From: Paraburkholderia aromaticivorans | GTDB lineage: Bacteria; Pseudomonadota; Gammaproteobacteria; Burkholderiales; Burkholderiaceae | DNA: 64,000 nucleotides | Assembly (NCBI RefSeq): GCF_012689525.1 | Contig: NZ_CP051516.1 | Location: 248,001-312,000 of the forward strand | Direction of reading: 5' to 3' | Part shown: positions 43,938-59,662 of the stretch, in pieces | Position numbering within the stretch: the stretch's first letter is position 1 | Layout: the number at the start of each line of letters is the position of its first letter | Notes under the pieces: model-generated | Seen by the model: only the letters and a program-made list of their open reading frames with translations | The model's database searches: none | Told to the model about the DNA's origin: nothing | Position numbers and translations under genes: made by a program

Positions 43938-44109
43938 GAACGGAACCTCAGGAGTCGCGCGGAACGCGCGGGACAGTGCGTCGGTTTGGGCTTTCGGCCC
44001 GGTGCTGGACAGCCTCTCTATTGTAGCCACATTCCGGCGACGCGGCGGGACGCGGGCCAGGAGCGGATAATAGGGTTTTACGTTCTCGTCAGTCCGATCT
44101 TCTGTCCCC

Positions 44110-44814
44110 ATGTTCCGAACTGTTTTTCGCGCTAGTCGCGTTGGTCGCTTTCTCGCTCAAATTCCGTCCTGTCTTACTTCCGCCAGCCGCTCAACGGGCC
44201 GTTTTTTTAACCGGCCACCGCGCCTGATCGACACCAGCGACTGGTCAGTCGGCGCCACGCCCCCATTGTCGAGTGCGCGCGCAGTCTTGAGCACGCTGGC
44301 TTGCGCGATGGCGCTAGGCGTCGCGCTGAGTGCCTGCTCGCCGACCTTCGACTGGCGGACCATCATGAACAACGACAACGGCTACACCGTCGACCTGCCG
44401 GCCAAGCCGAGCAGCGATCAGCGGGCCGTGCAGATCAACGGCACGCCGATGCAGATGGCGATGCAGACGGCCGAAGCCGGCGACGCCGTCTTCGCGGTCG
44501 GCACAGTCATGCTGCCCAACGACGACGAAGCCACGCAGAGCGCCGCGCTCGATTTCCTGCGCACCGGCCTCGCCCGTAACGTGGGCGCTGCGCCTGATGC
44601 GCGTGCCGTGCAGGTCCCGCTTGCTGCCGGCGGCCAGGTGCTCGGCCTGGAAATGAAGCTGAGCGGCGAGGCTGGCTCGCAGCACGAGACACGCACTGTC
44701 TACGCCCGGCTTGTGGCGCGCGGGCGGCATGTCTATCAGGCGGCGATCATTGCATCGAAGCCGATGCAGCAAGAACAGGTCGACCAATTTTTTTCGTCGT
44801 TCCAACTCTATTGA
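44110..44814 (+). CDS. Putative lipoprotein, unknown function
   Basis: The frame has a lipobox, MALGVALSACSP, at about residues 67-78 with a preceding hydrophobic stretch (VLSTLACAMALGVALSAC). The mature domain (about 160 residues) has NGYTVDLPAKPSSDQRAV and ends QVDQFFSSFQLY. The true start is probably later than 44110, for example a TTG near 44267, since signal peptides are not this long. No known family recognised with confidence. Confidence 0.65.
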   Translation: MFRTVFRASRVGRFLAQIPSCLTSASRSTGRFFNRPPRLIDTSDWSVGATPPLSSARAVLSTLACAMALGVALSACSPTFDWRTIMNNDNGYTVDLPAKPSSDQRAVQINGTPMQMAMQTAEAGDAVFAVGTVMLPNDDEATQSAALDFLRTGLARNVGAAPDARAVQVPLAAGGQVLGLEMKLSGEAGSQHETRTVYARLVARGRHVYQAAIIASKPMQQEQVDQFFSSFQLY

Positions 44815-45157
44815 GAGCGGTATTTTTGGCCGATTCGGCGCGTGATGGGGCGAAACGGAAGCGCTGCGCACAGTGAAAGTTCCTTCGTAGCATCGCGCGC
44901 TAATTCCCGGTTTACGTTGGGGTTTTCCTATTCCTCGCCGTTCCTGTGGATAACTCTGTTGAGAACTCGCGCAAATTGGCTGGAGATGCCCATTCTATGG
45001 GCACTCTGTCAGATTCCACCCTCTCAAGGCTGTTAAAAAAACTCAATCAAATCAATGCCTTTTGGATGCGGTCCGCAGCGTACCTTTCAGATGTTTCAAA
45101 ATCTGTCTGGAACGTGTGCGTGTGCATAAGTCAAGTCTTGACAGCATATTTTTCGCC
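44815..45157. other. Intergenic region between lipoprotein and comM
   Basis: About 340 bases. No convincing gene. It is richer in A/T than the flanking genes and contains short A and T runs (for example AAAAAAA near 45036) but no clear terminator. Confidence 0.5.
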
Positions 45158-46027
45158 TCATCGGGAGCCAAAAGCCCGGCGATATTGGATCGCTTCGCCG
45201 ATCTGCGCGGCGCTCGGCATGGGCGCGCCGGCGAGATCGGCGATGCTGCGTGCTACCTTCAGAACCCGGTAGTACGCACGCGCCGACCAGCCGAAGCGCT
45301 CGCCGGCTTCACGCAGCAAGGCTTCGCCCGCTGAGTCGGGGCGGCAGACCTCGTCCACTTCTCGTCCTCCCAGTTCACGATTGGTTTTGCCCTGACGGCT
45401 CAATTGCCGCTCGCGGGCGCGGTTGACGCGCGCCGCGATAACGGCGCTTGTCTCGCCGGCCGCCGTCGAGCGGGCGGACAGTTCCGCCGGCGTGAGCGCT
45501 GGCATCTCGAGCTGGATGTCGATCCGGTCGAGCAAGGGGCCGGAAAGCTTCCGCAAATAGCGCGCAGCGATCTCGGGCGTGCAACGGCAGCGGCCGTTGG
45601 GATCGCCGCGCCAGCCGCACGGGCACGGATTCATGGCGGCGATCAATTGACACGCAGCCGGGAAATCCGCCTGCAAAGCGGCACGCGAAATCGTGATGCG
45701 GCCGGCTTCGAGGGGCTCACGCAGCGTTTCGAGGACATGGCGATCGAACTCAGGAAGCTCATCGAGAAACAGCACACCCAGATGCGCCAGCGTAATTTCA
45801 CCGGGCTGCGGCGGATTGCGCCCGCCGACCAGCGCCGCGGCGCTCGACGAATGATGCGGGGCGCGAAACGGCCGTCGACGCCATTGCGAGGGCGTGAAAC
45901 CGGCCCGGCTGGCGGACAGCAAGGCAGCGGAGGCGAGCGCTTCGTCGTCGGTCATGGGCGGCAGCAGGCCCGGCAGGCGGGCGGCAAGCATCGATTTGCC
46001 CGCACCGGGCGGCCCGACCAGCAAGGA
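45158..46027 (-). pseudogene. comM: comM 3' part (YifB/ComM magnesium chelatase-like), 5' part removed by island insertion
   Basis: The minus strand encodes the C-terminal part of ComM from LLVGPPGAGKSMLAARLPGL (Walker A) through LFLDELPEFDRHVLETLREP, the MNPCPCGW...CRC zinc region and the ChlI C-terminal domain to the stop at 45158. The first 215 or so residues of ComM (Lon-like domain) are missing. The sequence before Walker A does not continue ComM but is foreign DNA leading to a serine recombinase. ComM is a helicase for branch migration in natural transformation, so transformation should be impaired. The exact breakpoint is near 46021-46028. Confidence 0.87.
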
Positions 46028-46110
46028 CGTAGGGCCAAATAAACCCACTGGGCTAATTAGACCCTATCAGGCGGCTATAGCATATGACCTTGTGATAGAT
46101 TAGACCTCCC
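46020..46110. other. Left attachment junction of the island (candidate attL)
   Basis: The comM frame ends here and the serine recombinase gene begins at 46131. The segment holds GGGCTAATTAGACCC (ends complementary) and a second copy of TTAGACC at about 46100. Serine recombinase sites are short with imperfect symmetry, so this is a fitting place; the crossover dinucleotide cannot be set without the other junction. Confidence 0.5.
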
Positions 46111-46130
46111 GTGTTTCTGCCGCCCGTGCC

Positions 46131-47966
46131 GTGCCTGCTACCCCGACGCCAAAGGCGTATTCGTATATCCGCTTTTCGACGCCAGAACAACAATCCGGCG
46201 ACTCATTCCGGCGGCAAACTGAACTCTCGCAGAAGTACGCCGAGGCCCATGGGCTGACCCTTGATGAAAACCTGACGTACCGTGATCTCGGGGTATCGGC
46301 TTTCGACAAGTCGAACATCAGAACCGGCGAACTCGGTGCGTTTCTCCGCGCCATCGATTCAGGTGCTGTCGAACCGGGATCGTATTTGCTTGTCGAGTCG
46401 CTCGACCGGCTTTCGCGAGCGAAGGTCACCGATGCGCTTGAGATTTTCATGTCGATCATCAATCGCGGAATCCGTCTTGTAACACTGGCGGACGGCAGGG
46501 AGTACAGCAAGGAAAAGATAAACGAGCAATTCACGGAATTGATCATCTCGATTGTTGTGATGTCCCGCGCGCACGAAGAATCGCTAACCAAAAGTCGGCG
46601 ATTGAAGGAGGCATGGAAGGCGAAGCGCGGCAGGATCAGTGACACGAAACTGACCGAAATGGCTCCGGCGTGGCTGAAACTGAATGAGGATAGGACAGCC
46701 TACTCGCTCATACCGGATCACGTGGAGCTGGTTCAACGCATGTTCGAGTGGTCGAGAGACGGGATCGGTTCGGAAACCATCGCGCGGCGACTGAACCAGC
46801 AAGAGATTCCCACGCTCGGGACACGTTCAGCAAACCAGTGGCACGCGTCGTACATCAAAAAGATCCTCGATAACCGGGCCGTGCTCGGCGAATTCCAGCC
46901 GCATACGCTCGTCAACGGGAAGCGTATTCCCGAGGGCGATCCGGCTCCCGACTACTTTCCGCGAATCGTCTCGGACGAAGATTTCGTTCTTGCGAAGTCA
47001 GCGCGTCAGTCGCGCCGAACGAATAGTGCTGGACGGAAGGGCCAAACGCTTTCGAATCTGTTCTCAGGCGTTCTTCGCTGCGGTTACTGCAATGGATCGA
47101 TGGTGTATGTGAACAAGGGGCATAGCGGGCCGCGTGCAAAGTTGCTGGTCTGTGCGGGAGCGAAAGCAGGGAAGGGTTGCCACTATGTGCCGTGGGAATA
47201 TCCTCAATTCGAACGTAGTGTTCTCGCGTACTGCAAGGGGCTGGATTTGGATGCATTCCTCCAGACCCGCGATACGGTCAAGTCGGAACTTACGGCTCTG
47301 AGTGCGCGCATCGCGGTGCTCGAATCATCAATGGCTGACAATGAGCAGAAGCAGGCGAACATTCTCGAAGCCATCGAATCGGGAGCGAAGTTCCTGCAGT
47401 TTGAAGCGCGTATGGTCCAACTGGAACAGGAACGTATGCAGCTCAGTGCGGAACTGGAAGAGACACGACAGAAATTTGATCTCCGCGCGAATGCGACCGT
47501 TGACGTAACGGCGGTTCGCGCATCGATTGACGAGTTACTACAGCGGATCAGCGAACTGGAAGGCGACGAGCTATACGATGTGCGAGCGCGGTTGAGCCAG
47601 CATATCAAGCGGCTCATTGTTCGAATCGCCATGTATCCCGGCGGCTATATCGACAAGCCTTATCTCATCGACAAGTTTCGGGCACGCATGATCGCCAACG
47701 GTGCCAGTGCGGATGAAGCGAACACGCACATTGCGTCAAACTTGCGGCTGACGCCGGACGTTAGCGAGCGGTTTTTCACGATGATCTCGCGAAGCGACGC
47801 CGTTCGTATGATTCGGCCTGACCTCGAAAATCCGGAGCTATTGCATCTTCAGTCGATTGAAGGCGGGCACGGTTTGGTCGCTCATGCCGAGGCCATTGGC
47901 GCGATGCTGGAAAAGCTGGCGGAGTTTGCACTGAAATCTCAAGGAACGGCCCAAGACCACGCCTGA
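46131..47966 (+). CDS. Large serine recombinase (site-specific integrase)
   Basis: A 611-residue recombinase. The resolvase-type catalytic domain has YIRFSTPEQQSGDSFRRQ (catalytic Ser16) and LLVESLDRLSRAKVTDALEI. A recombinase DNA-binding domain follows (VELVQRMFEWSRDGIGSETI, then ARRLNQQEIPT), with a zinc ribbon (LRCGYCNGSMVYV ... LVCAGAKAGKGCHY) and a coiled-coil region at about residues 385-480. The GTG start is the most reasonable. It lies directly inside the comM junction, so it probably performed the integration. The Cys-rich and coiled-coil parts control direction in this family. Confidence 0.93.
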   Translation: MPATPTPKAYSYIRFSTPEQQSGDSFRRQTELSQKYAEAHGLTLDENLTYRDLGVSAFDKSNIRTGELGAFLRAIDSGAVEPGSYLLVESLDRLSRAKVTDALEIFMSIINRGIRLVTLADGREYSKEKINEQFTELIISIVVMSRAHEESLTKSRRLKEAWKAKRGRISDTKLTEMAPAWLKLNEDRTAYSLIPDHVELVQRMFEWSRDGIGSETIARRLNQQEIPTLGTRSANQWHASYIKKILDNRAVLGEFQPHTLVNGKRIPEGDPAPDYFPRIVSDEDFVLAKSARQSRRTNSAGRKGQTLSNLFSGVLRCGYCNGSMVYVNKGHSGPRAKLLVCAGAKAGKGCHYVPWEYPQFERSVLAYCKGLDLDAFLQTRDTVKSELTALSARIAVLESSMADNEQKQANILEAIESGAKFLQFEARMVQLEQERMQLSAELEETRQKFDLRANATVDVTAVRASIDELLQRISELEGDELYDVRARLSQHIKRLIVRIAMYPGGYIDKPYLIDKFRARMIANGASADEANTHIASNLRLTPDVSERFFTMISRSDAVRMIRPDLENPELLHLQSIEGGHGLVAHAEAIGAMLEKLAEFALKSQGTAQDHA

Positions 47967-48111
47967 CCTGCCGGTGTCAACACGCGCCGTCTAGTATTTA
48001 CTGCTGTTTGCTGAGTGTTATCACCGGCATGTCCTCGGCCGCAAAATTCCGCGCCCACCCCCGCTAGGCTGGATAGAATTTCCCTACGGTTTCACTACAA
48101 GGGAAAAACAC

Positions 48112-48324
48112 ATGGCAACGAAACCTGTGCGTGACGGGATGGGCCGCATCATCGGCTTCGAAGAAAAGACCAGCAACGGAAGCACTGTCGCATACGATTC
48201 GCAACGTCGGCGGCTCGGGTTCTACAGTTCGCCTTCGAAGAACACGTACGAATCGGATGGGCGTCGGGTTGGACCGCGCGATCAGACGGGCCGTTTGTTC
48301 GGACGGCCTGAACGAAAGAAGTAG
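48112..48324 (+). CDS. Small 70-residue protein, unknown
   Basis: Encodes MATKPVRDGMGRIIGFEEKT ... RRRLGFYSSPSKNTYESDGR ... DQTGRLFGRPERKK. Short repeated D-x-x-G-R-x-x-G turns suggest a beta-hairpin protein. AAGGGAAAAAC lies before the ATG. Likely a real island gene; no function known to me. Confidence 0.65.
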   Translation: MATKPVRDGMGRIIGFEEKTSNGSTVAYDSQRRRLGFYSSPSKNTYESDGRRVGPRDQTGRLFGRPERKK

Positions 48325-48360
48325 ATGCTCGTCATTCCCCGACTCGTTTGCGGTGGCCTT

Positions 48361-48654
48361 TTAGGCGCTGATGTTGATGACTGAGCCGACGGCTGTCGTA
48401 CCCGAACCAGTAGTGCTTTGCGAAGGCGACGGCGAAGAATTCGCCAATGCGCTCAACGCTTGATGGTGGTGCGTGCTTTTGCCAAGACTGCTCTGTGACG
48501 TTGCCGTCTTCAGGTGTGCCGCAAAACTCGGCTGGCTCGATTCACTCGTTGAGCTTTGGCCCGTCAGCTTCGACAGCCCGGAACTGATGGCGCTGCTCAC
48601 GCCGCTGAGTAGTGTGGCTGCTGCACCGATTGGAATCATATCGACGTCCGTCAT
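48361..48654 (-). CDS. Ser-rich small protein, unknown (doubtful)
   Basis: A 97-residue frame from MTDVDMIPIGAAATLLSGVS, then Ser/Thr/Gln-rich, ending TTAVGSVINISA. The composition is low complexity. No clear ribosome binding site at the chosen start. It may encode a secreted or surface-like short protein, or be chance. Confidence 0.4.
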   Translation of the reverse strand: MTDVDMIPIGAAATLLSGVSSAISSGLSKLTGQSSTSESSQPSFAAHLKTATSQSSLGKSTHHHQALSALANSSPSPSQSTTGSGTTAVGSVINISA

Positions 48655-49117
48655 AATGGGGCAACCGAAATGCCCACGCGTTCCAACTATACCGAGTTTC
48701 CCCACTGTGTGGGCATCTCGGCTTCTATGCCATCGCAATCGCGGCTGTCGTTGACGCCGAGTTGGGTGCGGCGATCAGTTCTGGCGGTCTGAACAACCGC
48801 CAGAACGAACGAAATAGCATGTTGCAAATTGACGCACGTGGGTCGTATCGTCAGCCAACGCGACCGATGGCAACCCATCGGCTGCCACTATCGGTGAACG
48901 TCTGCATTGAGAAAGACAGGTGTTCATAACCATCCCACGACGTTCGATGTTTAATCCTCCTGGGCCGATTTCCACGTCCCGTATTTCAGCTTGGTACGGC
49001 CGATATGGCAGAATCTGTCGTCGTCTCGAGCTGGCATCAGGCTGCGCGAGACAATATGGAAAATTACGCTCGCAACAGCGGTACGTGTTCGCTGCGATTG
49101 CCAATAAGAGACCAGAT
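48655..49117. other. Non-coding region upstream of the DUF262 gene
   Basis: About 460 bases. The frame of the DUF262 gene is open upstream from 48920, but the added residues have no family resemblance. Nothing else convincing; the promoter of the DUF262/ATPase pair should be here. Confidence 0.5.
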
Positions 49118-50299
49118 ATGCGCCTGCTACCGTCCGACCCCGACATCGAAACCATCGTCTCACGCATCAAGAGCGGCGATATTGATTTGCAGCCCGATTT
49201 TCAGCGGGGAGAAGTCTGGTCTCGGGCCAAAAAGCAACGTCTTGTCGACAGCGTTCTTCGCGACTGGCATGTTCCGCCAATTCACGTGATCGAAGACGTG
49301 CAAACGCGCAAGCAAGAGGTACTCGACGGGCAGCAACGCTTGGTCGCAATCCGCGACTTCATCGACGGTGAGTTTGCACTAGATGGCGAAATCGAACCGA
49401 TCGACGATGGCTTGGCCACCCTCCACGGCAGCAAATATCGTGATTTACCGGAAGTCTGGAAGCGGCGGTTCAACCAGTTCACGATTCGCCTATTTCGAAT
49501 CGTTGACTATCGCCCCGGCGAACCCGGCGAATTGTTTTTCCGGCTTAACCAGCCTACCAGCCTCACTGGTGCAGAACAGCGAAATGCATTTTTCGGTCCG
49601 GTCCGTGCTCAGATAAAGGGGCTGGTGGAGGCCTTGGACGAGATGGGACTGGGCAAGGATTTCCTCGGGTTTTCTAACTCGCGGATGGCATACGACGACG
49701 TGCTATCGCGCGTTGCATTGTCTTTGGAGCGTGGTTCTCTGGACGCGAAAGTGAAGTCCTCTGATTTGATCGAACTGTATCGATCAGAGGCTCCTCTTGC
49801 GCCCGAGACTACGAGATTGATCCACGAGTCATTGAAACTATTCGGCGATACCCGAGATCATCGCAGTGTCGAAATGAAATTTAACAAGGCGACCCTTTCG
49901 ACTTGGCTGCTGTTCACTGTGCGATGCTTGATGCGTGATTACGATTGGATGTCGGCCGAAACGCTTGCGAATTTCATGAACTATTTCGAGAGTGCTCGCT
50001 TACTCGGCTCGCTCCAATCGGAACAAGTTGCATCGCTGGCCCCGTCGGAATGGTTGTTTAATGTGTACGAGAGCCGCTCGACAGCGCGAGTTGCCGATGT
50101 CTCGTCGGTGTTACTGCGTGACGCAACTTTATGGCTAGTGTTCGATGATTTTATAGCCGCATTAGACGGGTCGATAGCTCGTCCGGAAATCGACCAACTG
50201 CGTTCGGCATTTGCACAGGATTCATCGACCGGTCAACCACTCGAAGACGATTCTGTCGCTCGACGCCTAGTTGAAAACGGCTGGGGACGTCTGGCATGA
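49118..50299 (+). CDS. DUF262 (ParB/Srx-fold) domain protein, partner of the downstream ATPase
   Basis: A 393-residue protein. The N-terminal DUF262 domain has LQPDFQRGEVWSRAKKQRLV and the DGQQR motif (EVLDGQQRLVAIRDFI), which in this fold acts as nucleotide-dependent nuclease or NTP sensor. There is no DUF1524 HNH nuclease tail as in GmrSD-type proteins; the C-terminal half is a helical region without known motifs. Start at 49118 is chosen because family proteins begin near MRLLPSDPDIETIVSRIKSG. Its stop overlaps the start of the ATPase gene (ATGA), so the pair is translationally coupled. Confidence 0.82.
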   Translation: MRLLPSDPDIETIVSRIKSGDIDLQPDFQRGEVWSRAKKQRLVDSVLRDWHVPPIHVIEDVQTRKQEVLDGQQRLVAIRDFIDGEFALDGEIEPIDDGLATLHGSKYRDLPEVWKRRFNQFTIRLFRIVDYRPGEPGELFFRLNQPTSLTGAEQRNAFFGPVRAQIKGLVEALDEMGLGKDFLGFSNSRMAYDDVLSRVALSLERGSLDAKVKSSDLIELYRSEAPLAPETTRLIHESLKLFGDTRDHRSVEMKFNKATLSTWLLFTVRCLMRDYDWMSAETLANFMNYFESARLLGSLQSEQVASLAPSEWLFNVYESRSTARVADVSSVLLRDATLWLVFDDFIAALDGSIARPEIDQLRSAFAQDSSTGQPLEDDSVARRLVENGWGRLA

Positions 50300-51762
50300 A
50301 TCTGCGAAAAGCTCGGTTTGATGACCACTGGCGGCGTACATTTCTCAGGGCATATCCGTCGCGACTTGAAGTCTTGAGGTTCAAGCGGCTCCTTTGCGTA
50401 GCGGACAGCGAGGTGGCAATTCCGACCGGCATTTGTGCCATTGTGGGCGGGAACGGTGTTGGGAAATCTGCATTGCTGGCCGCGATTTCGGAGCTGCTGG
50501 CCGATCCGGAAATGCCTCTCGGAGTCGGGCACCAGGCGAGGCTGCGAAACAGTGAGCTGCAAGGTACCGTAACAGATCAAGTTGGTCGCAAAGACATCAT
50601 TGTTCGAGAAGACGCGGATGGTGTGCGAACGCTCGGCGAAGGCAAGTTCGAAGCAGAATTCTACTGGCTCGAACCGTCATATCTTGTCAATCTTACCCAT
50701 AAGCAAGTAAACGAAGACGCCAACTTTTCTGATCTGTTGGAACCGTTAAGCCCATCTACGCTCGACGCCGATGAACTCGAGACATTGTGGTACTTGCTGG
50801 GGAAAAAAATAGATTCGTGCTCAATATACGAAATCACGGAGTATGGGGACTTGGACCCATTCCCCTATTTCATAGCGGAGGCTGGGGGCCACAGCTATGG
50901 AAGTGAAAGCATGGGTTACGGGGAATTGTCGCTCCTGTTCGTGCTGTGGAAGTTGCGAACAATCGAGAAAAACTCAGTGCTGGTGCTCGAGGAACCCGAG
51001 GCACACGTATCCCCGCGCTCTCAACGCGCTTTAATGGATATTCTGGCGAGGGCTTGCGACGAGAAAGGGCTGTCGATAATTCTGACGACGCATTCCCCGG
51101 CGATTATCGCGAACCTGCCGAATCGAAATATCGTTTTAATTTCGAAGAGCGCTAATGGAACCTCGGCCTCCATCGGGCCAAGTAAAGTACAGGTGAACGA
51201 TCTACTTGGTGCAACGACCCTAAAACGTGCTCTCGTCCTTGTGGAGGACCGAGCGGCACATCAATTCGCGCTTGCTTTGTTGGGAGAAACAAACCTCGAC
51301 GTGCTGTCACATGTCGAAGTGGTGGAGGCCGGCTCCGCCGCAAAAATCGATTCTGTTCTATCAACACTACCGCTATCAAGACATGGCTGGCTGAATGTAA
51401 TTGGCGTGTACGACGGAGACATGCGCGCCCGAGTAGACTCGCGCCACTTCAATTGGCCTCACCTTTTCCTGCCGGGTGAAGTATCGCCTGAACATATTTT
51501 GCGCGATGGTTTGACTTCGCGGCATGACGGGCAAGATCTACTTGCAACGGAGTTGCGTCGCGCCCGCGACGCAGTTGGGGTAGCGTTAGATGCTGTCGAT
51601 GGCCTAGACGCGCATGACTGGTTCACTCAATTGCCGGTATCACTTGGTTGTGACCATCCCGCATTGATGGCGGCATTGGTCCGAATTTGGCTTCGTGACA
51701 ACAAGCCCGCAGCAGATGCATTCGTTCAGAGCATCGTCGATAAGATCAATCTAACGGTTTAG
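50296..51762 (+). CDS. OLD-like AAA ATPase with C-terminal TOPRIM-like segment
   Basis: A 488-residue protein. Walker A is GGNGVGKSALL (about 51-61). The Walker B-type strand is SVLVLEEPEAHVSPRSQRAL (about 228-247), where the usual Asp is Glu. The H-loop is IILTTHSPAIIANL. The C-terminal third has LVLVEDRAAHQFALALLG (about 313) and GVYDGDMRARV (about 370), matching the E and DxD of TOPRIM nucleases in OLD proteins. Known OLD/ABC ATPases act in phage defence (for example Gabija, PARIS). Coupling to DUF262 makes a two-gene candidate defence operon. Confidence 0.82.
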   Translation: MNLRKARFDDHWRRTFLRAYPSRLEVLRFKRLLCVADSEVAIPTGICAIVGGNGVGKSALLAAISELLADPEMPLGVGHQARLRNSELQGTVTDQVGRKDIIVREDADGVRTLGEGKFEAEFYWLEPSYLVNLTHKQVNEDANFSDLLEPLSPSTLDADELETLWYLLGKKIDSCSIYEITEYGDLDPFPYFIAEAGGHSYGSESMGYGELSLLFVLWKLRTIEKNSVLVLEEPEAHVSPRSQRALMDILARACDEKGLSIILTTHSPAIIANLPNRNIVLISKSANGTSASIGPSKVQVNDLLGATTLKRALVLVEDRAAHQFALALLGETNLDVLSHVEVVEAGSAAKIDSVLSTLPLSRHGWLNVIGVYDGDMRARVDSRHFNWPHLFLPGEVSPEHILRDGLTSRHDGQDLLATELRRARDAVGVALDAVDGLDAHDWFTQLPVSLGCDHPALMAALVRIWLRDNKPAADAFVQSIVDKINLTV

Positions 51763-51920
51763 TTCGTGCCGCGCTTTGGCCGATGATCTGCCGACTGACT
51801 CGGCGGGACGAATGGCCGTTACTCGCCGAAAGTTGATTATGAGGCGGTGCGCGGCCCAGCGTCCAGCGTGAGTCGATCAGAGGCGGGCGCGAACATTTTG
51901 GACGCTGTCGAGATTGCCTT

Positions 51921-52145
51921 TCAATTCGTCAACGTATCTGCATCATCGCCATCGCGGTGAGCGTTGGCAATGATCGCTCGAATGCAGGCGTTAGCCTCAC
52001 GTGTCCATTCGGCCTCAACCTCGCGGCGCATTTCCTCTTCCATCGTCGGGTAGCGACACTCTTCGCGCATCACCCAGCCATACTTTTCCGTCCAGCGTCT
52101 CTTGTGTTCGGCGATTGCCGCCTGTAGTCGTTCTAAGTCGTTCAT
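51921..52145 (-). CDS. Small charged protein, unknown
   Basis: A 74-residue protein starting MNDLERLQAAIAEHKRRWTE with many Arg/Glu residues (EEEMRREVEAEWTREANACI) and predicted long helices. The ATG at 52145 has AGAGGAAAAC before it, a very good ribosome binding site. Function unknown. Confidence 0.65.
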   Translation of the reverse strand: MNDLERLQAAIAEHKRRWTEKYGWVMREECRYPTMEEEMRREVEAEWTREANACIRAIIANAHRDGDDADTLTN

Positions 52146-52297
52146 GTTTTCCTCTGTTTCTTGCCCGGTGCTGTTCGGGCCTGCCCAGGTATTTATCGAC
52201 GGCATTCCGCTGCGCTTCGAAACGCTCCAACGATCGACGCTTGCTGATCGAAAGCTTGCTGCGATAGATTCGATCCTTTTGGGGAGTTGGAGCTACC

Positions 52298-53122
52298 GTG
52301 GCAGCGAATTCCGAGCAGATCGCATCAATGTTCCGAATTACCTACTCGTCGGAGTCGGCGGACGGGCTAACGAAGTTCGATTTCAAGATCAACGACACCG
52401 CGAGCGACTGGCTATGGTGGTGGTATCGATACTTCAAGGAAAACGCGGACTACAAGGCGTACTGCGCGGCCCGTCGCGATGACGACCGGGAGGCCTGCAT
52501 CGAACTGGAAAGCCGGTTCGAACGCATCGTCCAGTTGTACGAGGACTGGGGTGATATCCACACCGGCAAGCGGTTGTACAAAAACGAATCGTCGTGGCAG
52601 GAGTGGCTGTTTGATCACCGGCACCTGTTCTTTGTCCAAGTGCCGTCGGTCAGAGTGCTCTCGGCTCTTGCTGATGTCGAACGCGGGGCCATCGCCATCC
52701 AAATTCCGGCTACGGTCTCGAAGGAGGTGCTGCTTCAAACCGTCACTGAATTCATCGAACGAAACTATGCGGACCTACGCGTTGCGCCGAAGCCCAAATA
52801 CGAACTGTATGCCCCGGGAGGGCGCATCGACCAGAGCACCTTTCAGACCGTAAAGAAATCATTTTACGTTCACACGGCGTCGCAGCAACACGTCTGGTTT
52901 CCGATTTCGAACGCCGGGACCGCGCTCGAAGTCATGGCGCTCGAACTGAAGAGCGAGCTAGGGTTCAACTGGGAGCTGGAGCCAGATCAGGAAGAACGGC
53001 TGCGGAATGGCACGTTGAGCATGTTGGAGTTGGAAGCGTTCAAGAGGCAGGTCGGCCGGTACAAGGCCCAGTTCGATGCCTACGTCGCGAACACCATTCA
53101 CGGTGTGTTCCCGAAGAAGTAG
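52298..53122 (+). CDS. Unknown protein, 274 residues
   Basis: A soluble protein. The N-terminal half is Trp/Tyr-rich (ASDWLWWWYRYFKENADYKA, then RFERIVQLYEDWGDIHTGKR). The middle has EWLFDHRHLFFVQVPSVRVL and IAIQIPATVSKEVLLQTVTE. Layout recalls uncharacterised island proteins with a short motif of DWGD and a helical C-terminus. GTG start with GGAG upstream. No catalytic motif recognised. It may belong to the cargo of the element. Confidence 0.65.
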   Translation: MAANSEQIASMFRITYSSESADGLTKFDFKINDTASDWLWWWYRYFKENADYKAYCAARRDDDREACIELESRFERIVQLYEDWGDIHTGKRLYKNESSWQEWLFDHRHLFFVQVPSVRVLSALADVERGAIAIQIPATVSKEVLLQTVTEFIERNYADLRVAPKPKYELYAPGGRIDQSTFQTVKKSFYVHTASQQHVWFPISNAGTALEVMALELKSELGFNWELEPDQEERLRNGTLSMLELEAFKRQVGRYKAQFDAYVANTIHGVFPKK

Positions 53123-53129
53123 CGACTAG

Positions 53130-53166
53130 GAACAGATCAGATTGCGATTTCGGATTTGATCTGTTC
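53130..53166. promoter_or_regulatory. Inverted repeat between the 274-residue gene and the H-NS-like gene
   Basis: GAACAGATCA and TGATCTGTTC, perfect 10-base arms around 17 bases, no T-run. A possible mRNA end signal or protein-binding site. Confidence 0.4.
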
Positions 53167-53244
53167 GTTCCGCAGAAGTCTTCCGATTGGAAAAATGGCT
53201 ACATCGTACGCAATCAAACACACGAAGAAGATTGCCCGATGCAA

Positions 53245-53290
53245 ACCTATCAACAAATCGGAGGATTTATGCGGACTTATCAACAAATCG
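53245..53290 (+). repeat. Tandem 30-bp duplication at the start of the H-NS-like gene
   Basis: AC(C/T)TATCAACAAATCG occurs at 53245-53260 and again at 53275-53290, in the same reading frame (TYQQI twice). The strong GGAGG before ATG 53269 lies within the duplicated spacing, so the duplication places a second start codon and ribosome binding site. Confidence 0.7.
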
Positions 53291-53844
53291 AAGCAGAATT
53301 CGTGCAATACGAAGCCGAGGTCGCCGCTCTCAAGCAACGCATGGCCGCCCTCAAGGAACGCCGTAAGGATATGCGTCGGGAAGCCTGTAATCGGGCTCTT
53401 CCTGAAATCGTAGAACGCATGACCGCGGCCGGGATTACGTTGGAGCAGGTGCGCATCGCACTCGCAGCAGCAAAACCTGCCGTGCCGGTCGTCGATAAGT
53501 ATCGCAACCCCGAAACTGGCGACACGCACTCCGGAAGGGGTCATTGCCCCGGTTGGCTCACCAAGGAAACCAAGAAGGACCCGCGTTATTGGAACCCGGA
53601 ATGGGTTGCCAAGGATGCCGCCAAGAAAGCAGCCAAGGAAGCAGCAAAGGAAGCAGCAAAGGAAGCAGCCATGAGGAATAAGACCAACTCTTCGGGTGCG
53701 TCCGTTGCCGACGAGGCTCAGGCTTCGAATAACGCAGCTCAAACTCCGAGCGGTGAGGTTCAGGCTTCGAACGATGCACCCCACCATTCGACTGTCAACG
53801 CGCTGAACCCGTTGAGCCAATCGTCCGCCGTGGGCGCTGCTTAA
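53269..53844 (+). CDS. H-NS family histone-like protein with unusual linker and core
   Basis: A 191-residue H-NS/BpH3-type protein. The N-terminal part is a coiled coil (QIEAEFVQYEAEVAALKQRM). The C-terminal DNA-binding core is KYRNPETGDTHSGRGHCPGW (about 77-96), where most relatives have RGRAP or RGKKP. A KEAA-type repeat (about residues 118-135) and a Ser/Ala-rich tail follow. Start ATG 53269 has GGAGG at 6 bases. It may silence AT-rich island genes. The changed core loop may weaken DNA binding (inference). Confidence 0.85.
   Translation: MRTYQQIEAEFVQYEAEVAALKQRMAALKERRKDMRREACNRALPEIVERMTAAGITLEQVRIALAAAKPAVPVVDKYRNPETGDTHSGRGHCPGWLTKETKKDPRYWNPEWVAKDAAKKAAKEAAKEAAKEAAMRNKTNSSGASVADEAQASNNAAQTPSGEVQASNDAPHHSTVNALNPLSQSSAVGAA
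53629..53670 (+). repeat. 12-bp tandem repeat encoding (A-A-K-E)n
   Basis: GCAGC(C/A)AAGGAA repeated three and a half times inside the H-NS-like gene, giving an alternating Ala/Lys/Glu helix like those in eukaryotic-like H1 tails. Confidence 0.85.
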
Positions 53845-53928
53845 CGTATCAATCTAGATAAAAACTATCCGAATACGGCATGCATCGCTATGAAATAGTA
53901 AGCATGCCTACTTAATTGTCGAAAGGAA

Positions 53929-54495
53929 ATGAAAATGAAAGCAGAAGATTGCGAAATTACGTGGATGGACCGGATCGACGGCGAGCGCGCGAACACCCTG
54001 GTCTTGCCGGAAGAGTACGCGGACTTGAAAAAAAAATCGCATGACTCGCTCGAGTTGGCAACCATCGTGTCGATGCTTAATCACGCGAAGGAAATGGGCG
54101 ATATCCCCGACCGTCTGCGCCGGATTCGCCACGTTTCCTACTTCAAATCGGAAAAGGCGTCGGATCGCTTCGCCAAGAAACTGGCTTCCAACGGCTACAT
54201 CGACGTGAACGTAATGAAATTTTTGGGCGTGCCGTTGTGGCGCATCGATTTTTTCCGCATCGGAAATGCGACCCTCCCCCACATGGCGCATATGAATTGC
54301 ATCGTCAAGAAAATGGTCGAGAAGGCAGGTGGGGAATATGACGGCGTCGTGCTTCCTACCATGTCCACGGATGTTCCGGACGAATCTCTTCATCCCGAGA
54401 ATGATGGCCCCATTTGGAGCATCGTAACCATGGCTCCGCGCGACCAATCGGTAAATCATGACGAGTCTAACGCGACGCAATTGCTCGTAGCGTAA
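53929..54495 (+). CDS. RraB-like (RNase E inhibitor fold) protein, copy 1
   Basis: A 188-residue acidic-to-neutral protein with ATIVSMLNHAKEMGDIPDRL, RHVSYFKSEKASDRFAKKLA, WRIDFFRIGNATLPHMAHM and KAGGEYDGVVLPTM. The order of a short N-terminal helix, H-x-x-x-F strand and GxYDG strand resembles the RraB/DUF695-like fold. RraB proteins bind RNase E; whether this one does is not known. AAAGGAAATG-type ribosome binding site. The next gene is a diverged copy. Confidence 0.55.
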   Translation: MKMKAEDCEITWMDRIDGERANTLVLPEEYADLKKKSHDSLELATIVSMLNHAKEMGDIPDRLRRIRHVSYFKSEKASDRFAKKLASNGYIDVNVMKFLGVPLWRIDFFRIGNATLPHMAHMNCIVKKMVEKAGGEYDGVVLPTMSTDVPDESLHPENDGPIWSIVTMAPRDQSVNHDESNATQLLVA

Positions 54496-54506
54496 TCCGA
54501 AATCGA

Positions 54507-54530
54507 CCGACCGTTTTCGTAGACGGTCGG
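54507..54530. promoter_or_regulatory. Hairpin between the two RraB-like genes
   Basis: CCGACCGT pairs with ACGGTCGG around an 8-base loop, no T-run after it. It may separate or couple the two cistrons. Confidence 0.4.
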
Positions 54531-54569
54531 ATAACCAACAAGTACACAGAAATACTCATCAGGACCGAT

Positions 54570-55022
54570 ATGAGCAATCAAACCAATACCGAAGAAGATG
54601 GCGTGGCTCCGCATTTCATGTCTATTGCGGAGGTTCCTCCTTCGGATTTTGTTGCCACCCGCATGGGTCGAAAAAAACAGGACGACGACATCATCGCATT
54701 GGTCGATGCAGTCAAACGCCTGCAGGACGGTGGAGATGACGAGGACCAGCATCGCGACATCTGGCACACCGCGTACTTCGGGTCGAAAGACCATGCGGAT
54801 GTCTTCTTGAAGTGGCTGGATGAACGCGCGTTTTGTGCCGTCTCGTGCTGTCATCTCGATAGCGGTGGGTGGCGTGTTAGCGCATTCAACTATGGATTCA
54901 CTAACCTCGTTGACCTGATCAAGTGGTATTCCATCGTTCATGAGCAGGTATGTAAGGCCAATGGCCAGTACGTAGAGATCCGCGTGCGTGTCATGTGTGA
55001 CGACGGGCACGCCATCGAATAG
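54570..55022 (+). CDS. RraB-like protein, copy 2
   Basis: A 150-residue protein with DIIALVDAVKRLQDGGDDED, RDIWHTAYFGSKDHADVFLK, GGWRVSAFNYGFTNLVDLIK and KANGQYVEIRVRVM. The order of a helix, HxxYF strand, gap, GWR...F strand and KAxGxY strand parallels the preceding gene, so the two look like diverged paralogues. Function unknown. Confidence 0.55.
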   Translation: MSNQTNTEEDGVAPHFMSIAEVPPSDFVATRMGRKKQDDDIIALVDAVKRLQDGGDDEDQHRDIWHTAYFGSKDHADVFLKWLDERAFCAVSCCHLDSGGWRVSAFNYGFTNLVDLIKWYSIVHEQVCKANGQYVEIRVRVMCDDGHAIE

Positions 55023-55034
55023 GCCAATAAATAG

Positions 55035-55120
55035 GACTGTCGCAAGCCAGCAGGGCGGTCGTCACCGCTTCGCGCCGTTACCAATGAAATGACGGCCTCC
55101 TGCTGACCTTCGCGACGGTC
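55035..55120. promoter_or_regulatory. Long imperfect inverted repeat upstream of the replication genes
   Basis: Arms 55035-55054 and 55099-55120 pair with a few mismatches (GACTGTCGCAAGCCAGCAGG against CCTGCTGACCTTCGCGACGG and onward). Inner segments (GGCGGTCGTCA/TGACGGCC) pair too. The structure lies 84 bases before the primase gene. It could be part of an origin, a single-strand initiation site or a folded leader RNA. Confidence 0.55.
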
Positions 55121-55203
55121 GATCTGGTAACTCGACCCATAACCTAGCGAAGCGGATCACCTGTGCATATTTCCGCATACATCGCGTCTTGCGAGGAATC
55201 AAC

Positions 55204-56178
55204 GTGCCTAATTCTGCACTACAAATCAATTACACAAATTTCAATAGCGTCTACGACAATGTCGTGAAGCCTGCGCTTGCGTCTTGGGATGAACTGGCAT
55301 CCATTTTGATCTCAGGTCATCCAGTTGTCGTTGCCGACAAGCTGACTCTGCCATCGTTCAGTGCATGGCGCTACAAAAGCGTTGACGATCTAACCGTTGA
55401 TCATGGGGAGAAGAACGGAAAGCCGATCAAGTGTTTCAGCAAGACCCATGTCCGACGTCTCAAGTCGAACGTGGTCGAAACGTCCATGCTGATCATCGAC
55501 TTCGATGGCCGTTTGCCCGTTGAGGAAGTTCGGAAACGCTTCGGCGAATACGAGTACGTCTGCTATACCTCTTTGCGGCATCGCCATGAAGACAAGGACA
55601 AGTTCCGCGTGGTGCTTCCGTTTGCCGATCCGATGCCGAAGGAGGACTTTCAGCGGCTTCATCGTAAAATTGAAAAATGGATCGACGGCGACGATCGCAA
55701 CATCGCGGATGATGTCACTTATGTAATCGGACAAGTCTTTCTTCTTCCTGGTGTATTCGAAGAGTACGCCGCGCATGCGCGTGCATGGCGTAACGAAGGT
55801 GCGTTGCTTGATTGGCGCATGTTCGAGTCGATTTCTTTGGCCGCAGTGGAATCGAACACTGCCAATGCAACCATGACCAACAATCGGCAGAGCGAGCACC
55901 GTTTGATGCCATATGACGTTCTCGAAACGGCGTCAGGACCGATCAAGGTCAAGGACATAGACCGAAAGATTTCGAAAGTGCTGTGCCCGTTTCCGTCTCA
56001 TGGCGATACCAATCCGTCCGAATTCGTGGATGTATCAAACAGTGGGCGTCCCCGCTTGGTGTGCAAGAAGTGTGGAACAATCTATATGTGGCAGGCACAG
56101 GGAGACGACATTGCCGATGGTCTGGCAATGATCGCGGAACGTAAGCGTCTGCGTGCCGAACGGGAGGCGAAGCAATGA
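55204..56178 (+). CDS. AEP-type primase/polymerase-like replication protein
   Basis: A 324-residue protein with an archaeo-eukaryotic primase-like core: SMLIIDFDGRLP (acidic pair near residues 99-101) and YTSLRHRHEDKDKFRVVLPF (about 121-140, the S-x-H motif variant plus basic residues). A C-terminal zinc-binding segment follows (VLCPFPSHGDTNPSEF ... LVCKKCG). GTG start at 55204 is chosen because GAGG lies 7-10 bases before it. The ATGA overlap with the following helicase suggests they work together to start replication of the element. Confidence 0.75.
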   Translation: MPNSALQINYTNFNSVYDNVVKPALASWDELASILISGHPVVVADKLTLPSFSAWRYKSVDDLTVDHGEKNGKPIKCFSKTHVRRLKSNVVETSMLIIDFDGRLPVEEVRKRFGEYEYVCYTSLRHRHEDKDKFRVVLPFADPMPKEDFQRLHRKIEKWIDGDDRNIADDVTYVIGQVFLLPGVFEEYAAHARAWRNEGALLDWRMFESISLAAVESNTANATMTNNRQSEHRLMPYDVLETASGPIKVKDIDRKISKVLCPFPSHGDTNPSEFVDVSNSGRPRLVCKKCGTIYMWQAQGDDIADGLAMIAERKRLRAEREAKQ

Positions 56179-58331
56179 GCAAGTCGCCGTTCCACACCTA
56201 TTCGGAGAAGAATGTTTCGCCGCAGTGGCATCAGCAGCCTGATCTGGTCCCATACAAGCGCCCGTTGCAGTCGGTTGAGGACGCAGGGCTGTACGATGAA
56301 ATACGGGTCGATAGTCGCTACCTTGCGTTGGATGTCTCGACGGATGACCGTCGTTTGCATGACGCCAACATCATCTTCGTGAAGGCGCCGAAGGGAACTG
56401 GCAAGACGAAATGGACGGCCAAATATCTAGAATCAATTCCGCGTCAGCGTAGCCGACTTCAAATATCGCATCGGCAATCGTTGGCGACCGTGCTATCGAA
56501 CGAACTGAACCTGAAGTGCTACCTGGACGACAAGGATGCGCATTGGGGCTATTCTGTCAGTCTGGACAGTATCGAGCTTGTGGAGAACTGCGCCTATGAC
56601 ATTCTTATAATCGACGAATCCGAACAAGTCTTCCGGCATCTCATAGGAGAAACGACGAGGGCCAAACGAGAGGCGATCTTCAACGTTCTGGTCAAACTGG
56701 CATGGAATGCAAAGCAGATCATCTGTCTGGATGCAGATATGACCCATGAACTCACTGGTTACGCGATGTCGAAATTGCGCTGCAATTTCGAATCCGACCG
56801 GCTTCTCTCCATCGTCAATGAGTGGAAAACGGATCGGGCCATCGAGATCTATCAGGACAAAAACCACCTGATCGCCGAACTCGTTACCGCCATTGTCGAT
56901 GGCAAGCGCGTGTACGTACCCGTCAGCGAACTCGGCTTTGCAAATACATTGAAGTCCCTGTTGGAAGGGTTGGTTCGGACAGACGGCCAGAAAATCGACG
57001 TATTGATGTTGACGGGAGAGACGAACAACGAGGATCGTCACAAAGCGTTCTTCCAGAATCCGAACGAAGAGGCGAAGAAATATCAGGTTCTCATTTCCAC
57101 ATCGACGCTCAGCACGGGCGTTAGTATCGATGTCAAATGGTTCGAAGCCGTGTACGGCATTTTCAGTGGAAACATTTACACCTATCAGGATTGTGATCAG
57201 GCCATCAGCCGCGTCCGCAAATGCGATACGGTGAAGGTGTGGATACACGGTGGCGGCAAACGGGAGTTTGAATCAGAAGCAGCAATTCGCAACGGAGTGT
57301 TGGAGAAGGAGGTTCGAACTCGACGTATCATTTTTCCAGATGAAGATGCCTCGATCACCCGAGCGCAGGAAACATTCCTTGATATGCATGCACGAATCAC
57401 TTGGTGCAATCAGGAATGGAAGATGAAGCGCATCGAGAAATTCCGCGATCTGAAGATCGAAGAAGGCTGGCGGGTTTCGTTGGTGGCGACCGATGTGGCG
57501 ATGAAGAAGGCCGGCAGTGAGATGTTGAAGTTTGGTATAGATCCGTTCGGTACGAAAAAGGCTACCCTCATCCTAGAGGCAAAGAACATCGACTTCGGAG
57601 AAGCCGATGTGTTGCGTGCGAAAGATCGTTCCGATCTTTCCCGCGACCAGAAACGGTCATTGACGAAGTGGGCTGTCTGCGAATTCTTCCGGCTGAAATC
57701 GCCAGCGCAGGTAACGTTGCAGCAGATCCAGCAGTACCAAACCGACGAAGTGCGTGAGGTGCTGAAGAATGTGCGACTGCTGCGGGATTCGAGAGCACTG
57801 GCGTTGGAGCGTGACCAGTACGAACGGACGAGTGATCGGGTCACCCGCGCTTTAACCGACTATGAGCACCGCGTCATGAAGCGCGACCTGTTCGATGGTG
57901 CGCTTGAGGCATCAGGCATCAATCGAGGAGAGGCATTTCGGCGGGCTGCGCGTTATAAGGAAATCGAAGATGAGTACGCTGAATCAATGCGCATCATCGG
58001 CGATTCGAATTCGCGTCCGGGCCGAGAAGCATCGAAGCATCGGCGCGAGCAGTTGGCGCAACTGGAATGGATCGTAACAGCCGAGATGATCGATAGTGTC
58101 TCGCGGTATGCTTCAACGAAGATGAAGGAGGTGAACATGTTCTTGGGCACCCACTTCGCAACGCCAGAGGCACTGGAAGCGAAAACGAAGGTCTTCAACG
58201 CAATCTTAGGCCGTCTTGGTATCGCGATCAAAAAGAATCGAAAGAAGGACAGCACTGGCTATGTCATCGACTACAAACGCATGGCAGAGCTATCGCCTTT
58301 GGTAAATGACGCAGAAGTTGCTGCCATTTAG
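56175..58331 (+). CDS. Replication helicase of the CyRepA1 / origin-binding type
   Basis: A 718-residue protein. The N-terminal half is a superfamily 2-like helicase: Walker A VKAPKGTGKTKW (about 69-80), DExx box LIIDESEQVFRHL (about 145), a CLDADM motif III region, STLSTGVSIDVKWF, and arginine-finger motif QDCDQAISRVRKC. The C-terminal half is helical and charged and may hold DNA-binding parts. This layout matches CyRepA1-like plasmid replication proteins as I know them. It forms a coupled pair with the primase-like gene. Confidence 0.8.
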   Translation: MSKSPFHTYSEKNVSPQWHQQPDLVPYKRPLQSVEDAGLYDEIRVDSRYLALDVSTDDRRLHDANIIFVKAPKGTGKTKWTAKYLESIPRQRSRLQISHRQSLATVLSNELNLKCYLDDKDAHWGYSVSLDSIELVENCAYDILIIDESEQVFRHLIGETTRAKREAIFNVLVKLAWNAKQIICLDADMTHELTGYAMSKLRCNFESDRLLSIVNEWKTDRAIEIYQDKNHLIAELVTAIVDGKRVYVPVSELGFANTLKSLLEGLVRTDGQKIDVLMLTGETNNEDRHKAFFQNPNEEAKKYQVLISTSTLSTGVSIDVKWFEAVYGIFSGNIYTYQDCDQAISRVRKCDTVKVWIHGGGKREFESEAAIRNGVLEKEVRTRRIIFPDEDASITRAQETFLDMHARITWCNQEWKMKRIEKFRDLKIEEGWRVSLVATDVAMKKAGSEMLKFGIDPFGTKKATLILEAKNIDFGEADVLRAKDRSDLSRDQKRSLTKWAVCEFFRLKSPAQVTLQQIQQYQTDEVREVLKNVRLLRDSRALALERDQYERTSDRVTRALTDYEHRVMKRDLFDGALEASGINRGEAFRRAARYKEIEDEYAESMRIIGDSNSRPGREASKHRREQLAQLEWIVTAEMIDSVSRYASTKMKEVNMFLGTHFATPEALEAKTKVFNAILGRLGIAIKKNRKKDSTGYVIDYKRMAELSPLVNDAEVAAI

Positions 58332-58342
58332 GGCTTCGGCGA

Positions 58343-58426
58343 TGTACAAAAATGTTGAGCTTTTCGGTAGATATGTAGTAACACCAACGTATATCAACCT
58401 ACTGGGCTCGGCTGCAAAAATGTACA
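58343..58426 (+). repeat. 84-bp direct repeat, copy 1 (iteron or recombination site)
   Basis: Begins and ends with TGTACA and has CAAAAATGT near both ends. It matches the copy at 58468-58551 at 71 of 84 positions (85%) without gaps, counted by hand. Lies just after the helicase gene, where plasmid iterons usually lie. Confidence 0.85.
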
Positions 58427-58467
58427 TCGACCGGGCAATATCAAGATGGGAGCGTCGGGCTGGGCGC

Positions 58468-58551
58468 TGTACAAAAATGTCGAGCTTTTCAGTGGACCTG
58501 TAGTAACACCTACGTGTATTCGTCTACTGGGCTTGGCTGCGAAAATGTACA
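58468..58551 (+). repeat. 84-bp direct repeat, copy 2
   Basis: Second copy of the repeat at 58343-58426, offset 125 bases. Differences are scattered substitutions; the ends (TGTACAAAAATGT and AAAATGTACA) and TGTAGTAACACC are kept, so these may be protein contacts. Confidence 0.85.
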
Positions 58552-58606
58552 CCTTGAGGCGGGCCACACAGGGCGGCGGCTTGCGTCGGCCTGTGTTGAC
58601 CAGTCC

Positions 58607-58651
58607 GGCCAGCCGCTCGGCCGTCCCTGACGGCGACCTTGGCGGCTGGCC
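58607..58651 (+). promoter_or_regulatory. Nested hairpin, possible terminator or origin structure
   Basis: GGCCAGCCGC pairs with GCGGCTGGCC, and inside it GCCGTC pairs with GACGGC around CCT. A short TTT follows. It may end the replication transcript; the unusually elaborate stem also suits a conjugal or replication origin. Confidence 0.55.
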
Positions 58652-58687
58652 TTTGATATGTCCATGTTCAGCCAGTGTCCCAGCAGG

Positions 58688-58717
58688 AATGTTTACTAAT
58701 TACAAATAGTAAACATT
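58688..58717. repeat. 11-8-11 inverted repeat, candidate tyrosine recombinase core site
   Basis: AATGTTTACTA-ATTACAAA-TAGTAAACATT: perfect 11-base arms around an 8-base spacer. This is the geometry of Xer/Cre-type crossover sites (11 bp arms in dif, 8 bp spacer in loxP). A tyrosine recombinase starts 104 bases later. Confidence 0.65.
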
Positions 58718-58766
58718 TCGTTGCAGCAAGCCATCCTGCCAGTGTACGAAGCCCAGAGGGCTGGAT

Positions 58767-58811
58767 AGAATGTTTATAAATGATTCGCATAGCGAAATTA
58801 ATAAACATTCT
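58767..58811. promoter_or_regulatory. Second AATGTTTA inverted repeat, immediately upstream of the recombinase
   Basis: AGAATGTTTAT and ATAAACATTCT, perfect 11-base arms, flank TTCGC-ATA-GCGAA, another palindrome. The arm core equals that of the 11-8-11 site. It ends 10 bases before the recombinase start, so it may be an autoregulatory site or an accessory recombinase site. Confidence 0.6.
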
Positions 58812-58821
58812 GAGGTGAATT

Positions 58822-59415: not shown

Positions 59416-59461
59416 GGATACCAACGCGAGACATGTGGGCGTATGAACAAGGAGACATCTC

Positions 59462-59662
59462 GTGAATGTGCGGAAGCGTATCAAGAGGGCCAACGACGCA
59501 AGAGTTCAACATAACCACGTATTGCTCGCCAGAATCTCGAAAACGAACGATACCGGCCTTGATGATGGAGTTGTGCTATCTATCTTGCGAGCGAAGAAAG
59601 GTCCGTGGACTGAATATACTTCGGTCGAAGAAATGCTTGCATTCATAGGTGCCGAAACGTGA
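59462..59662 (+). CDS. Small protein following the recombinase, unknown
   Basis: A 66-residue protein from GTG 59462 with AAGGAGA at 6-9 bases before it. Basic N-terminus (MNVRKRIKRANDARV), then DDGVVLSILRAKKGPWTEY. Probably co-transcribed with the recombinase gene 46 bases before it. Function unknown. Confidence 0.6.
   Translation: MNVRKRIKRANDARVQHNHVLLARISKTNDTGLDDGVVLSILRAKKGPWTEYTSVEEMLAFIGAET

Follow-up and report, generated by a model that had tools for sequence, protein, structure and literature searches.

A DUF262 gene coupled to an OLD-type ATPase-TOPRIM gene, a candidate two-gene defence module carried on mobile elements

Systems of the OLD family are sorted into classes 1-5, told apart largely by their partner gene: class 1 comprises TsOLD and P2 Old, class 2 the GajA protein of Gabija, class 3 the retron-Eco8 effector, class 4 PARIS and class 5 Cran1 (PMC12796447, PMC10568477). 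A single-chain arrangement, an ABC ATPase fused to TOPRIM, is described for HEC-04, which is reported to be active against T4 and T5 (PMC12111858), and a DUF262 protein accompanied by a predicted OLD nuclease is described for Menshen (PMC10952713). Here we report a computational analysis of a 64,000-nucleotide stretch of DNA from Paraburkholderia aromaticivorans (NCBI RefSeq assembly GCF_012689525.1, contig NZ_CP051516.1, positions 248,001 to 312,000 of the forward strand; hereafter the window), in which a gene for a DUF262 protein (P0001) overlaps a gene for an OLD-like ATPase with a TOPRIM-like C-terminal part (P0002). On sequence evidence, the two genes form a real two-gene module that is co-inherited across distant bacteria. 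DUF262 is not among the OLD partner genes described in the available parts of PMC12796447 and PMC10568477, and the pair was not found in the part of the open-licence PubMed Central (PMC) literature that was searched, by which we do not claim its absence from print.

The pair and its motifs occupy the following positions in the window.

49118..50299, + strand: DUF262/GmrSD_N protein P0001, 393 amino acids (aa), from its open reading frame (ORF); no HNH recognised
49145..49594, + strand: DUF262 domain, residues 10-159 (Pfam PF03235, GmrSD_N, 2e-18)
49325..49339, + strand: DGQQR motif, residues 70-74 (46/46 aligned sequences)
50296..50299, + strand: ATGA overlap of 4 nucleotides (nt), stop of P0001 and start of P0002
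50296..51762, + strand: OLD-like ABC ATPase with C-terminal TOPRIM-like part, P0002, 488 aa (from ORF, hidden Markov models (HMMs) and predicted model)
50446..50469, + strand: Walker A GGNGVGKS, residues 51-58 (motif pattern in 37/37 rows)
50977..51000, + strand: Walker B region LVLEEPE, residues 228-235 (EEPE in 37/37 rows)
51091..51093, + strand: H-loop His266 (nearly invariant)
51244..51249, + strand: TOPRIM-type Glu317-Asp318 (invariant in 37 rows)
51412..51420, + strand: TOPRIM-type DGD, Asp373 and Asp375 (D373 invariant, D375 at least 90%)

The initial annotation had taken the upstream gene for a DUF262 protein that has DGQQR and lacks the HNH tail of GmrSD, and this description was borne out. 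GmrSD_N is the sole Pfam family in P0001 at E<=0.1 (2e-18, residues 10-159), DGQQR is kept in all 46 aligned DUF262 sequences, P0001 counted among them, and the GmrD-type motif DH[ILVMF][YFW]P occurs in 0/46; the divergent relative L071, which lies outside this alignment, has DGHQR in place of DGQQR. Residues 187-393 give no Pfam match at E<=1, hence no DUF1524/HNH domain is recognised, an NCBIfam scan of P0001 returned nothing, and a sequence search of the PDB with the DUF262 profile gave a single chance-level match (E 0.39). An alternative, longer ORF begins at a GTG at 48920; the ATG at 49118 was taken as the start because most aligned relatives have an MRLLPSDPD-type start. The predicted model of P0001 is confident (predicted local distance difference test score, pLDDT, 88) and resembles ParB/Srx-like folds, with BrxU and SspE at the top of its structural list. 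Conservation within the pair is highest in the N-terminal part of this protein (mean column agreement 0.81 over residues 1-165).

The downstream gene, previously described as an ATGA-overlapping ATPase with GGNGVGKS, Walker B, H-loop and TOPRIM-like residues, likewise answers to that description, as these positions are invariant or near-invariant in a 37-row alignment (invariant columns G51, N53, G54, K57, E232-E235 (LEEPE), E317, D318 and D373; H266 and D375 at least 90% conserved). Pfam assigns the N-terminal part to AAA_21/AAA_15, and NCBIfam gave far-below-cut-off matches only, among the 25 of 79 matches listed. The C-terminal part is assigned to TOPRIM because of the HEC-04 HMM, which matches this part alone at 1e-7, together with the motifs and the model; among its candidate metal ligands are E317, D318 and D373, all invariant, and the near-invariant D375, with Ala321 at position +4. 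The model is confident (pLDDT 90.5), and its top Foldseek matches are Thermus OLD (TsOLD 6p74), the retron-Eco8 effector and GajA, the best being TsOLD 6p74 (E 1.1e-13, 466 columns). Both genes of the pair are under purifying selection, the ratio of non-synonymous to synonymous substitution rates (dN/dS) against the Caballeronia copy L001 being below 0.1 (0.075 for P0001 and 0.089 for P0002).

Co-conservation of the two genes, set beforehand as a test of the pairing, holds both ways (7/7 and 3/3), and chance adjacency of a DUF262 gene and an ATPase gene was rejected; these counts, and those of upstream and downstream partners given below, apply among the matches listed. A profile search of genome contigs with the ATPase as query, covering at least 596 stretches and liable to miss pairs, found at least 11 loci, of which five are full length (L001-L005). 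In all five a DUF262 relative lies directly upstream of the ATPase, at identities to the window pair that go down to 41% (DUF262) and 28% (ATPase). One further pair (L014/L071) came from a class-wide scan of 369 genomes and another (L018) from viral contigs, where L017 is identical to L001, so that a DUF262 gene stands directly upstream in 7/7 loci whose ATPase scores above 180 bits. Among more distant ATPase loci the partner is present in 0/31 (14 + 17, the window's own excluded), or 0/29 distinct loci since L021, L022 and L023 are identical; 14 of the 31 carry just ~0.8-1.5 kb of upstream sequence. In the other direction, when viral contigs were scanned with the DUF262 profile, 70 loci were recovered, three full-length and 67 weak (22 to 49.5 bits). 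All three full-length relatives (L073 and L074, which repeat L017 and L018, and the new L075) have the ATPase at the same junction, and none of the 67 weak matches has it, 54 of them with at least 1 kb downstream and 13 with under 1 kb. The 4-nt ATGA junction recurs in the window and in 7/8 other loci, the genes of L005 abutting instead.

Pairwise distances in the two families rise together (r 0.93 over 37 pairs; 0/2000 shuffles as high), the pairs consisting of 29 matched by identical contig size, with the window's pair included and one ambiguous size left out, and of 8 loci; this correlation of sequence distances, with its shuffle test, shows co-inheritance of the families, not physical interaction. 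As an indirect measure, 30/73 ATPase matches lie on contigs identical in size to that of a listed DUF262 match, as against 0-2/73 with shifted sizes. When the flanks of nine loci were compared (100 ORFs of at least 80 aa, chosen by length and not annotated genes), the sole cross-locus similarity was between two recombinases, and the conserved unit therefore appears to be of two genes.

The pair is rare among the genomes scanned, being present in 2/369 genomes of the class scan, host included, and in 1/144 genomes of the genus, that of the host, where three other ATPase matches come without DUF262. DUF262 relatives at E<=1e-40 were found in 1/398 and 1/299 genomes, the host each time. Per genome, no more than 4 candidates were scored in the class scan and no more than 11 in the genus scan, and pairs may have been missed in both; the protein searches scored ~8000 word-sharing candidates each, with 75/75 and 120 of 2055 matches listed. 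P0002 had no match in phage records at E<=1e-10, and no match to the pair's DNA was seen in E. coli genomes. Each of the two proteins is matched by a PHROGs family whose function is unknown (phrog_1583, 4.1e-76; phrog_3940, 5.8e-34), and relatives are therefore present in phages or prophages; P0001 also has a partial match, at 27% identity, in an Alicyclobacillus phage, where the stretch shown has no annotated ATPase.

We somewhat favour the view that the pair is a self-contained two-gene defence module on mobile elements, in which the DUF262 protein gates an OLD-type TOPRIM nuclease. By association, the pair is probably an anti-phage or other defence system, because defence-like genes neighbour it at other loci and both families have known roles of this kind, DUF262 genes being needed for Menshen and Dazbog defence (PMC10952713). 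The initial annotation had left the nuclease to either DUF262 or TOPRIM. The second option stood, given the invariant acidic residues; the first was rejected, no HNH having been recognised. TOPRIM is thus predicted to be the likely nuclease. In SspE, the NTPase activity of DUF262 is reported to turn on the nuclease domain, and for BrxU, changes driven by NTP have been proposed (PMC10952713); it is this precedent, joined to a TOPRIM nuclease, that points to DUF262 as a putative NTP-driven sensor or switch for an OLD-type effector. The ATPase, which the initial annotation made the sensor of phage or foreign DNA, may hold that role instead. The two proteins would form a complex in which the ATPase dimer keeps the TOPRIM nuclease quiet. 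The DUF262 protein, as a presumed NTPase of ParB/sulfiredoxin fold like BrxU and SspE, would sense either the nucleic acid of an invader or some cue of infection, and relay the signal through NTP binding or hydrolysis, upon which TOPRIM would cut nucleic acid and the invader would be restricted or the infection aborted. The HNH effector of a GmrSD-like enzyme would, in such a design, have given way to an ATPase-TOPRIM effector of OLD type, encoded as a separate protein.

A number of observations weigh against a DUF262-gated TOPRIM nuclease with a role in defence. A Pfam scan of the C-terminal part of P0002 finds no TOPRIM family, the best match there being Phage_r1t_holin (E 0.02, under cut-off). 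Whole-chain superposition of P0002 on OLD is poor (TMq 0.33, root-mean-square deviation (rmsd) 15.4; predicted TM-score (pTM) of the model 0.66), and the VIA list covers residues 19-308 of P0002 only, with the TOPRIM part outside. The second acid of the E-x3-D motif of Thermus OLD corresponds to Ala321, for which Asp318 is a possible substitute. The TOPRIM part is also less constrained than the ATPase part (dN/dS 0.20 vs 0.05), which fits target-driven change or weaker constraint alike. On the side of P0001, the structural match to BrxU is loose (rmsd 13.1), and a Foldseek search with its model found nothing at E<=0.001. As to the neighbourhood, PADLOC gave no solid defence match among the scanned neighbours in the window and no match for those of L003, L018 and L071, two each of 17 scanned.

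The initial annotation could name no system with this two-gene arrangement, which holds in so far as no PADLOC 2.0.0 protein model covers either protein at full length as part of one two-gene system, and is to be qualified in that their parts resemble NsnA, NsnB, HEC-04 and GajA; the matches of P0002 (HEC-04, GajA, AriA, NsnB) are all partial. The best PADLOC match of P0001 is NsnA (2.5e-31), and P0002 matches NsnB (8.4e-17, residues 198-276). As an ABC-type ATPase gene also comes next after the DUF262 gene in Menshen, given in PMC10952713 as DUF262 plus a predicted OLD nuclease, the pair might be a reduced or variant Menshen, its DUF262 protein a divergent NsnA and its ATPase a divergent NsnB that gained TOPRIM, with NsnC lost. 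We hold this to be quite unlikely. Five of eight NsnA-model loci (L063-L067) have an ATPase gene (361-384 aa) and then a third gene (249-330 aa), whereas L068-L070, the other three, are without that ATPase gene. NsnB ends in DUF3696 (2/2 scanned with Pfam), which is absent from P0002 and replaced there by the TOPRIM-like part, and nothing in the whole host genome matches the NsnC model at E<=10. In the DUF262 tree, for which 12 of 22 NsnA loci and 24 of 25 other loci were kept by score and length, the pair proteins and NsnA fall into separate clades (100/99 each) with long branches present, and one row on a long branch, L060, attaches to the pair clade from outside it (89/82). The ATPase tree likewise sets the pair ATPases apart from NsnB (88/93 and 100/100) and from HEC-04-like solo proteins (88/93), with several long branches; its 19 pair rows consist of six whose adjacency was read in DNA, P0002, and 12 labelled by similarity, and the fragment L148 is omitted. 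Menshen membership was rejected, for the Menshen members compared, on the lack of NsnC and DUF3696 and on the separate DUF262 clade.

A different division of labour is known from PARIS, where the OLD-ABC ATPase acts as the sensor of phage triggers and the AriB TOPRIM as a nuclease that cleaves tRNA (PMC12839542). On this pattern, sensing in the pair would fall to the ABC ATPase and the effector role to TOPRIM, which might, like AriB, be a tRNA nuclease, with DUF262 as a second effector or an NTP-consuming regulator. HEC-04-like ATPase-TOPRIM proteins that exist without DUF262, and the faster change of the TOPRIM part, are in line with such a scheme. It nevertheless seems unlikely in view of the position of DUF262 within the pair, which accompanies 7/7 full-length family ATPases among the matches listed and whose N-terminal part, at 0.81 over residues 1-165, is the most conserved portion of the two proteins.

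The element that carries the pair is delimited on one side by two further features of the window.

46131..47966, + strand: large serine recombinase of the carrying island (Resolvase, Recombinase, Zn_ribbon_recom)
45158..46048, - strand: C-terminal piece of the interrupted comM/YifB (Mg_chelatase, Mg_chelatase_C)

An island of ~34 kb, which starts with the large serine recombinase gene, splits comM/YifB, and the N-terminal piece lies ~34 kb away on the same contig (G000:C3:328223-329053); direct repeats at the comM ends amount to just 9-11 base matches, and an att core was not found. The island genes also include a tyrosine recombinase and a CyRepA1-type replication protein. At 55189-58331 a primase-like gene (phrog_9765, 5e-15) overlaps one for a replication helicase of the CyRepA1 family (NCBIfam 6e-72, over cut-off), and these two genes suggest an island able to replicate. 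Of the mobile island with other defence-like genes that had been proposed, the island is thus confirmed by the recombinase and the split comM/YifB, and the other defence-like genes are weakly supported. A radical SAM protein and a trypsin-like peptidase are encoded further along the island (G000:C3:320968-322311 and 323259-324464; L156); the former matches the PADLOC viperin model (3.3e-20), the latter Pfam Trypsin_2 (6.9e-11) and PADLOC RT-Protease_XI (2e-9). Both are weak signs of additional defence cargo. Elsewhere on the island, two adjoining RraB-like genes lie at 53929-54495 and 54570-55022 of the window (Pfam 3.7e-7 and 3.9e-4, the first passing the cut-off and the second not). The interval 59746-61718 encodes a PIN_12 protein and, after it, a protein with DUF4145, which is assigned to the HEPN superfamily (PMC3710099), the two being a possible RNase pair. 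Rfam at gathering thresholds gave nothing in 44000-64000, and a promoter/terminator scan of 48000-52300 found a single promoter-like site on the + strand upstream of the pair (48630-48657, 9/12), which is not informative.

At some other loci the pair has recognisable defence-like neighbours. At L075 (L075:1-6734, IMGVR_UViG_2639763197_000001) the immediate neighbour of the pair, in divergent orientation, is what looks like an entire Gabija operon (GajA 2e-218, GajB 4e-179), and a resolvase-like gene is found nearby. AbiEi/AbiEii stand beside the pair at L004 (from Paenibacillus oceani), an Mrr-like nuclease gene close to it at L002 (from Azonexus hydrophilus; PDC-S02, 6.4e-14) and a NACHT protein near it at L005, and at L001 a methyltransferase gene is found ~2 kb away. 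These surroundings bear on whether the pair serves element maintenance or inter-element competition, in a toxin-antitoxin-like or anti-plasmid manner, with phage defence secondary. The replication gene on the host island, the predicted viral contigs that carry the pair elsewhere, the closeness of phage-protein families of unknown function to both proteins (phrog_1583, phrog_3940) and the resemblance of the DUF262 model to ParB/Srx folds would all suit such a role, yet the recognisable neighbours are defence-like at four other loci and neither P0001 nor P0002 was matched in plasmid records at E<=1e-20, and we regard it as very unlikely. As a separate observation, L015 (G311, 994-3962) carries an ATPase-TOPRIM relative but no DUF262; the ATPase-TOPRIM gene shares 4 nt with the gene downstream of it, and the beginning of that gene resembles, by eye, a DUF1156-type methylase.

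Compared with described systems, the module that we favour, a DUF262 switch with an OLD-type nuclease, shares the DGQQR-bearing DUF262 with the GmrSD, BrxU and SspE type of type IV restriction. Unlike GmrSD, its DUF262 protein has no recognised DUF1524/HNH, and the nuclease would sit in the second protein. HEC-04, the best PADLOC match of P0002 (1.9e-25, best stretch residues 154-484), is the nearest single-chain family to it, and HEC-04 and IbfA share with it the single-chain ATPase-TOPRIM layout, VED..A and DGD-type motifs being present in most aligned rows; HEC-04 is, however, a single-gene system, and a DUF262 gene was seen in the fetched flanks of 0/9 other HEC-04-model loci.

A more far-reaching proposal, which we put forward tentatively and consider somewhat doubtful, is that of a further OLD class with a DUF262 protein that lacks a nuclease in the place of the helicase, reverse transcriptase (RT) or other partner. 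This protein would act as an NTP-gated reader of invader DNA, possibly base-modified, and switch on TOPRIM, in a type IV restriction-OLD hybrid that prophages and islands would have carried through Pseudomonadota and Bacillota. The DUF262 partner is common to Pseudomonadota and Bacillota and is found here with one ATPase clade only, among the matches listed, and probably marks a separate mode of control. If true, this would link families that have been studied apart, the DUF262 modification sensors and the OLD TOPRIM effectors.

With the OLD family as a whole, the pair has in common an N-terminal ABC ATPase (Walker A, LEEPE, H-loop) and C-terminal TOPRIM-type motifs on the same chain; it differs from the described classes in that its partner gene encodes DUF262 and not UvrD, an RT, a separate TOPRIM or a membrane protein. 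Class 1 proteins stand alone, whereas the pair ATPase has its DUF262 partner at 7/7 loci among the matches listed. Unlike class 2 (Gabija), no helicase gene is conserved in the flanks of nine loci, and the helicase at L075 comes with its own GajA. Unlike the retrons of class 3, the nine loci have no conserved flanking gene, the scanned window neighbours no Pfam RT, and positions 44000-64000 no Rfam match. In class 4 (PARIS) the ATPase and TOPRIM are on separate genes and here on a single chain of 488 aa, although fused AriAB forms exist and the single chain alone does not decide against PARIS (PMC10568477). Class 5 (Cran1) belongs to Sulfolobales and to an operon with a membrane protein, whereas the partner here is DUF262 and the named hosts are bacterial. 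The pair is, in sum, probably an additional class of OLD-type system, set apart by its partner gene.

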